From Pseudodesulfovibrio indicus (GTDB lineage: Bacteria; Desulfobacterota; Desulfovibrionia; Desulfovibrionales; Desulfovibrionaceae), in NCBI RefSeq assembly GCF_001563225.1, contig NZ_CP014206.1, positions 2,170,001 through 2,234,000 on the forward strand: 64,000 nucleotides of DNA. The letters run 5' to 3'. Position numbers and translations under genes: made by a program. The notes under the pieces are model-generated. The model was not told the origin of the DNA. It did not search any database and saw nothing but the letters and a program-made list of their open reading frames with translations. Of the stretch, positions 35,027-36,636 are shown piece by piece (positions within the stretch are counted from its first letter, which is position 1; each line of letters opens with the position of its first letter).

Positions 35027-35317
35027 CTAGGCAGCCAGTTTGACGGTCATGAACTTGAAGATGCCGTCGGTGATGCGGATGTTGCGTTCAAGCTCGGCAA
35101 CCAGCGCGCCGGGGGCTTCGTACACCATGCGAACGTAGTATCCACGGGTCTGCTTCTGGACGGGGTAGGCCAGCTGGCGCATGCCCCAGTCGTCGGTCTC
35201 AACCATTTTGCCGCCGTCGCGATCCACGATGCCGGTGAGGGTGTCCAGGATGGTTCTCCTGTCTTCCTCAGCCAGCTCCGGAGAGAGCAGGACGAGCGTC
35301 TCGTAATTGTTTGCCAT
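35027..35317 (-). CDS. rpsF: 30S ribosomal protein S6
   Basis: 96 residues from the ATG at 35317, with AAAAGGAG nine bases before. The family pattern is clear: [16 protein letters not shown] at the start and [16 protein letters not shown] in the middle. A short leader of about 55 bases follows the promoter and can fold through CTCC and GGAG arms. In many bacteria the S6-S18 complex represses this operon through such a leader, but the motif was not verified here. It is the first gene of the unit that runs to DUF456. Confidence 0.96.
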
Positions 35318-35423: not shown

Positions 35424-35567
35424 CTACTTGTCGTCTTTCTTTTCGGGCGGCTTCCAACCGCACCTGTCGCTGCCGGGGCCTCAGCCCCCGCCGAACTTGC
35501 CCCGGATGAGGCGGCCTACGGCCAGCCCCACGATCACCAGGGCTATGAGCTGCAACCATTCGGGCAT
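35424..35567 (-). CDS. Candidate small membrane selenoprotein with in-frame UGA (47 residues)
   Basis: A minus-strand ATG at 35567 follows AGGAGGGAGACGAC, a near-perfect ribosome binding site. The frame reads MPEWLQLIALVIVGLAVGRL, then IRGKFGGG, then TGA (35483-35481), then GPGSDRCGWKPPEKKDDK and TAG (35426-35424). Without recoding it would be a 28-residue one-helix membrane peptide ending in GGG. The 18 codons after the UGA have 15 G or C third positions, one Cys and a charged, soluble tail, as a genuine coding end would. A single N-terminal membrane helix with a Gly-rich, UGA-containing tail resembles SelK/SelS in layout. Possible stem-loops follow the UGA (GCGGT with GCCGC, about 21 bases on). 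Selenocysteine is inferred; sel genes were not seen in the window. It is not in the usual size range of gene callers. Confidence 0.5.
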
Positions 35568-35601
35568 GTCGTCTCCCTCCTATGGTGTCCGCGAAATACA
35601 C

Positions 35602-35739: not shown

Positions 35740-36636
35740 CTAGACCTTGAGGTCCTCGCCGGTCAGAAGCCTGTAGGCTTCAAGGTATTTGGCGCGGGTC
35801 CGGGCGGCGATGTCGGCCGGGATGCGCGGCGCGGGCGGCTGCTTGTTGAAGCCGATCTCCACCAGCCAGTCGCGGAAGTACTGCTTGTCGAAGCTCGGCT
35901 GTGACTGGCCGGGCACGTAGCCGTCTTCGGGCCAGAACCGGGAGGAGTCCGGGGTCAGGGCCTCGTCGATGAAGATCAGCTCGCCGTCGATGGTCCCGAA
36001 CTCGAACTTGGTGTCCGCGATGAGGATGCCGCGCGCCTTGGCGTAGTCGCGGGCGCGGGTGTAGATGTCGAGCGCCAGTTTCTCGACCTTGCGCATCATC
36101 TCCTCGCCCAGCAGCTCGGCGGCCTTGTCCAGGGAGATGTTCTCGTCGTGCTCGCCCAGGTCCGCCTTGGTGGACGGGGTGAACAGGGCGGTTTCGAGCA
36201 TCTCGGATTCCTTCAGCCCGGCGGGCAGCTTGTGGCCGCAGACCTCGCCGGTCTTCTTGTAGTCGGACCAGCCGGACCCGGTGATGAAGCCGCGCACGAT
36301 GCACTCGATGGGCAGGGGCTTGGCCTTTTTGGCCAGCACGGAGCGGTCCTGGAGCTGGTCGCGGTACTTGCGCAGCGGTTCCGGATATTCGTCCACATCC
36401 GTGGCGATGATGTGGTTGGGCACCAGGTCCTTCATCATGTCCATCCAGAACAGGGTGATCTGGTTCAGGACCTTGCCCTTGTCCTCGATGGGGTCGGGCA
36501 TGACCACGTCGAAGGCCGAGAGACGGTCCGTCGTCACCAGGAGCAGGGTGTCCGCGTCGATTTCGTAGATGTCGCGGACCTTGCCCCGGGAGATGAGCGG
36601 GTACTCGGTGATGTTGGTCTCAAAAACGGCTGCCAT
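35740..36636 (-). CDS. purC: Phosphoribosylaminoimidazole-succinocarboxamide synthase
   Basis: 298 residues, the longer PurC type. The ATP-grasp-like start has RGKVRDIYE, then LVTTDRLSAFD, the conserved ECIVRGFITGSGWSDYKKTG and a late IFIDEALTPDSSRFW. It joins aspartate to CAIR in purine synthesis. It follows hisD on the same strand with a 25-base gap. Co-transcription of purC and hisD fits the shared use of AICAR in both pathways. Confidence 0.95.
   Translation of the reverse strand: MAAVFETNITEYPLISRGKVRDIYEIDADTLLLVTTDRLSAFDVVMPDPIEDKGKVLNQITLFWMDMMKDLVPNHIIATDVDEYPEPLRKYRDQLQDRSVLAKKAKPLPIECIVRGFITGSGWSDYKKTGEVCGHKLPAGLKESEMLETALFTPSTKADLGEHDENISLDKAAELLGEEMMRKVEKLALDIYTRARDYAKARGILIADTKFEFGTIDGELIFIDEALTPDSSRFWPEDGYVPGQSQPSFDKQYFRDWLVEIGFNKQPPAPRIPADIAARTRAKYLEAYRLLTGEDLKV

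Follow-up and report, generated by a model that had tools for sequence, protein, structure and literature searches.

Selenoproteins K and S (SelK/SelS) combine a short N-terminal segment, a single membrane helix, and a Gly-rich basic tail, with selenocysteine (Sec) near the C-terminus and probably facing the cytosol. A gene for a protein of comparable layout lies in the 64,000-nucleotide stretch of Pseudodesulfovibrio indicus DNA analyzed here (the window), which belongs to a complete 3.97-Mb genome. The predicted protein and its relatives resemble SelK/SelS in layout alone, sharing the single N-terminal membrane helix, the Gly-rich stretch, and the position of Sec near the C-terminus. They differ in having a bacterial-type SECIS within the coding region, a length of about 50 residues, and usually a Cys after the Sec. 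The likeness to eukaryotic SelK/SelS drawn in a preliminary description of the locus thus stands for layout; it does not extend to homology by Pfam, as no SelK/SelS match was found at E <= 0.1 in 39 members.

The names of KCU-star, UXX-star, and other short-tailed bacterial selenoproteins (NF033934, NF041114, NF041211) imply Sec near the C-terminus (PMC13188914). That list does not contain the motif of the present family, in which a membrane helix is followed by [T/S/G]U-x4-6-C. No NCBIfam selenoprotein model matches any member tested, and Pfam returned sub-threshold matches only. Seven of 39 members gave such matches to the FeoB-associated family PF12669 (best E 0.0052; hhalign probability 47%), against which the window protein scores 13.6 bits (curated cut-off 27 bits). 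Proteins of both families are tiny and single-helix, the helix being followed by a basic flank, Gly/Ser, and then Cys. Unlike PF12669, the present family is without a CxC/CGC cluster, carries Sec instead, and does not lie beside feoB in the loci read. PF12669 was considered as a Cys homologue and rejected, since the similarity is weak and low-complexity. Separate small Cys-rich membrane proteins of FeoB-associated-like type are also encoded by two genomes of the host genus (L172, G027:C15; L177, G016:C12); these likewise combine a helix with Cys and are possibly very distant relatives.

As summarized in Table 1, the 47-codon reading frame with its in-frame UGA was confirmed at the position first proposed, together with its strong ribosome-binding site and its location between purC and rpsF; all three genes lie on the minus strand. 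Translation of the minus-strand frame gives MPEWLQLIALVIVGLAVGRLIRGKFGGG-U-GPGSDRCGWKPPEKKDDK as the predicted product. Of 115 homologues, 106 have a Shine-Dalgarno-like motif ahead of the start. A scan for sigma-70 promoters and terminators found none.

Table 1. Features of the small gene and its surroundings, in window coordinates.
Feature	Position	Strand	Remarks
Predicted selenoprotein gene	35424..35567	-	47 codons (46 standard + Sec29), TAG stop; homologues with the same UGA
Start ATG	35567-35565	-	
UGA	35483-35481	-	
Stop TAG	35426-35424	-	
Ribosome-binding site AGGAGG	35576..35581	-	8 nt from ATG
In-frame UGA, codon 29, predicted to be read as selenocysteine	35481..35483	-	TGA in all homologues read, Cys in none
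Conserved Cys36 codon TGC	35460..35462	-	7 residues past Sec, within CGW(T/K)PP motif
Bacterial SECIS-type hairpin GCGGUU-GGA-AGCCGC	35447..35461	-	Apical loop 25 nt after UGA, G first in loop
Single transmembrane helix, residues 3-24	35496..35561	-	AlphaFold2 model, alignment of 26 members
purC	35740..36636	-	Upstream neighbor, syntenic in host's own family; stop at 35740
rpsF	35027..35317	-	Downstream neighbor, heads rpsF-rpsR-rplI

One argument of the preliminary description had to be given up. The open tail of 18 codons after the UGA was held to be unlikely by chance, and yet a run of 18 or more sense codons follows 925 (54%) of the window's 1712 TGA triplets. Since tails of this length are commonplace after TGA, proof must be comparative. 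Four properties go beyond chance: the conserved position of the UGA, the conserved frame past it, a covarying hairpin, and purifying selection.

At the loci read, the UGA is conserved throughout. Within the host genus, a single-sequence search was positive for 31 of 36 genomes, with a TGA inside every match. Diverged copies were recovered by profile in three complete genomes missed by the single sequence (G009, G016, G028), which brings gene and UGA to 34 of 36 genomes. In the remaining two (G027, G029), which are 81-82% complete, the profile did not find the gene. Across the host's own family (Desulfovibrionaceae), 10 of 44 genera were positive by single-sequence search. At the level of the phylum, a first profile of 39 members matched 104 of 395 genomes. 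A second, built from 47 members, matched 170 of the 395 at E <= 0.001 (best 1.5e-21), with a TGA inside every one among the matches listed. Direct reading of loci confirmed TGA at the site in 25 of 25 and in 59 of 60 cases; the sixtieth was a spurious match.

A separate search covered 84,980 species with the DNA pattern N[RK]W[VIL][LF]P[RK]LG, which was built on a nine-sequence subset; broad alignments had no usable conserved stretch. The pattern covers only sequence upstream of the site and is blind to the site itself, so that versions with Cys or a stop would be equally findable. It yielded 71 confirmed loci, which by record title belong to Desulfobacterota, Spirochaetota, and Planctomycetota; TGA is present in all 71. 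The locus sets overlap in part (L085 and L143, for example, are the same place), and their counts are not additive. Well over 150 distinct loci were seen, and Cys, TAA, and TAG do not occur at the UGA site in any of them.

A hairpin follows the UGA in nearly all members. The bSECIS model describes a loop of 3-9 nt with G in the first two positions, 16-37 nt from the UGA, and an energy <= -7.5 (PMC13188914). Hairpins were counted here if they had suitable spacing, a loop G, at least 4 pairs, and an energy <= -4 kcal/mol. By this measure they occur in 98% of 43 host-family members and 93% of 71 wider ones (108 of 114 over both sets), compared with 25% and 16% of the respective codon-shuffled controls. 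The -7.5 limit, applied with a simple stem score, is reached by 77% and 58% of members. The window hairpin agrees with the bSECIS model in position, loop, and pairing; at -6.3 kcal/mol, with a U-G pair, it falls short of the energy limit and is weaker than those of most relatives.

Covariation supports the stem. In 16 wide members, 84.7% of stem cells are paired and six of nine pairs have changed on both sides. The covariation score is 0.372, a value reached by 0 of 500 shuffles; it compares with 0.173 in shuffled alignments and 0.015-0.136 in slid registers, and further runs gave a similar result. Compensatory changes are also seen in the host family, where GUGGC/GCCAC (L023) and CGAC/GUCG (L027) replace GCGGC/GCCGC; in L027, pairing is kept while the protein changes. 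The Thr and Pro codons in the hairpin are almost always ACG and CCG while other third positions vary, and the synonymous rate of the tail is reduced at the stem position. The stem-loops suggested earlier for the region 3' of the UGA are hence borne out by a covarying hairpin across relatives and not by the lone sequence: folding of the window member is not significant (z = +0.5), and the hairpin is not its minimum-free-energy structure. For this reason, the SECIS claim rests on comparison. An Rfam search of the window gave no SECIS match.

The frame past the UGA also evolves as protein. For 22 members of the genus, pN/pS was 0.217/0.613 in the codons preceding the UGA and 0.283/0.559 in those following it; the frame beyond is conserved, with dN/dS about 0.35. 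By these ratios, the tail evolves as coding sequence under purifying selection. The homologue search thus returned relatives with the same UGA and coding conservation past it, not the homologues with a conserved stop and nothing beyond that the preliminary description had named as refuting evidence.

The other refuter named there, a genome lacking the selenocysteine machinery, did not occur either. The host encodes selA, selB, selC (tRNA-Sec, 81 bits), and a UGA-containing selD. Its selD (L063, G000:C1:420357-421286) has an in-frame TGA inside and is probably a selenoprotein itself. In the phylum sample, selA was undetected in 6 of 170 carriers vs 29 of 225 non-carriers (p = 0.001). All six of these carriers have tRNA-Sec; five have a full-length selB and the sixth has selB fragments. 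No carrier without any part of the Sec machinery was found in this sample. With both refuters absent, the selenoprotein interpretation is supported. From the comparative sequence evidence, the small frame almost certainly encodes a Sec-decoded selenoprotein, in which the UGA would be decoded as Sec29 by SelB with Sec-tRNA. A small single-pass membrane selenoprotein is very probably the best explanation of the gene as a whole.

The single membrane helix noted at the outset was recovered by AlphaFold2, with pLDDT about 89 over residues 1-20; the remainder is of low confidence and the tail has no modeled structure. In the host's own family, the tail carries the motif UGPxxxxCGW(T/K)PP. Outside it, the layout is M-helix-N(R/K)WxLP(K/R)LGxxT-U-x4-6-C-basic tail, with a tail that differs from the host family's and U-x4-6-C as the wider motif. 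A Cys lies 5-9 residues past Sec in 106 of 115 members (92%), in 105 of them at 5-7. Nine members are without it. In three of these (L029, L166, L167), Cys stands directly before Sec instead (CU), which suggests a relocated redox partner and that pairing of Sec with a Cys matters. The other six (L158-L160, L162-L164) form one lineage with no Cys beside Sec and the sequence PSUGAPxDAGRH. Because of these six, a Sec-Cys pair cannot be required everywhere. Over the 115 members, the N-terminus is acidic on average and the tail basic; from charge and the positive-inside rule, the tail probably faces the cytoplasm.

A Sec-Cys redox role is the likeliest function, one in which we place about as much confidence as doubt. 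The helix would anchor the protein with its acidic N-terminus outside and its Lys/Arg-rich flank and tail inside, so that a flexible tail would sit on the cytoplasmic side of the membrane. Sec29 and Cys36 could form a reversible selenenylsulfide pair, and this membrane-tethered redox tail would reduce an oxidized partner near the membrane. Peroxide, polysulfide, lipid hydroperoxide, or a protein disulfide are candidate substrates, and the tail may be re-reduced by a thioredoxin-type system. No gene neighbor that might point to the partner is conserved across the family in the loci read.

In a less probable but serious contender, the selenoprotein would use its Sec, alone or together with the Cys, to bind a metal or metalloid ion, or would serve as an accessory to a respiratory complex, in place of acting as a thiol-type reductase. 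The layout recalls the FeoB-associated Cys-rich small membrane proteins. In addition, the gene lies directly downstream of a multihaem cytochrome c gene at ten loci, comprising five of the six Cys-less ones above and five that bear the Cys, and a 4Fe-4S ferredoxin-like gene precedes the cytochrome in nine of the ten. This neighborhood is confined to one locus group, however, while neighbors differ elsewhere (purC/rpsF in the host family), and each chain would offer just one or two ligands.

It is improbable that the gene is instead a selenium sensor, that is, a leader ORF whose selenium-dependent read-through would regulate the downstream rpsF operon. In the host's own family, 44 of 49 loci have the gene placed between purC and rpsF, which would suit such a role. 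Outside that family, however, what lies downstream is unrelated and often encoded on the opposite strand, whereas helix, Sec, and Cys are retained; tandem copies, each with the UGA, are even present in two genomes.

Lower still in probability is a 28-residue membrane peptide with a real UGA stop, behind which lies no more than an RNA element or an open frame that arose by chance. The helix part alone is plausible as a small membrane protein, and open tails of the observed length are, as noted, common after TGA. Yet the tail shows a conserved protein motif of its own together with low pN/pS. A genuine stop would vary between TGA, TAA, and TAG over evolution, while TAA and TAG never occur at the site in the more than 150 relatives. 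Given this conservation, the plain peptide and the chance coding that the preliminary description had offered as alternatives are both very unlikely. Reading of the UGA as another residue, or read-through without a SECIS, is hardly credible in view of the covarying SECIS-type hairpin, the presence of tRNA-Sec in all carriers tested for it, and a UGA that is never swapped for TAG or TAA.

The selenoprotein family described here is new, in that it is absent from the catalogues checked; an earlier notice elsewhere is possible. A 2026 table of 119 prokaryotic selenoprotein families contains nothing similar (PMC13188914), nor do the accessible portions of PMC1914089 and of the deep-Sep report (PMC12013277). 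The case is now stronger than the one first made, concerning a widespread, apparently Sec-obligate family and not a candidate from one genome. We consider it likely that this is an unrecorded Sec-obligate family of membrane selenoproteins of about 45-60 residues, present in more than 40% of sampled Desulfobacterota genomes, extending to some Spirochaetota and Planctomycetota, and lacking a Cys form in all that was sampled. To our knowledge, nearly all known bacterial selenoprotein families have Cys homologues, which is usual and not required. None was seen here in the pattern-scan, hand-read, or profile loci.

The family would have been missed for two reasons: gene prediction ends the frame at the UGA, so that annotation would here record a mere 28 residues, and selenoprotein detection depends on homologues with Cys. 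According to its authors, deep-Sep may overlook selenoproteins lacking Cys homologues (PMC12013277), in keeping with the present case. If the interpretation is correct, the family would rank among the selenoproteins that occur more widely in sulfate reducers and related bacteria. Current searches filter on Cys forms and would miss this family, which is common in an anaerobic phylum that is well studied; this points to a blind spot for short Sec-only genes. In layout, the family would also be the bacterial equivalent of SelK and SelS, both small membrane selenoproteins. Its apparent avoidance of Cys would make the long-standing question of why sulfur cannot replace selenium testable in a protein of 47 residues.

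Two variations in gene structure were observed. Five members from Planctomycetota MAGs (L121, L126, L141, L149, L150) have longer tails after Sec and a very regular hairpin. The tandem copies occur in two members of the host genus (L169/L176, G009:C1:2255262-2255560; L171/L178, G028:C4:341475-341767), and in these the final TGA of the first copy overlaps the ATG of the second.
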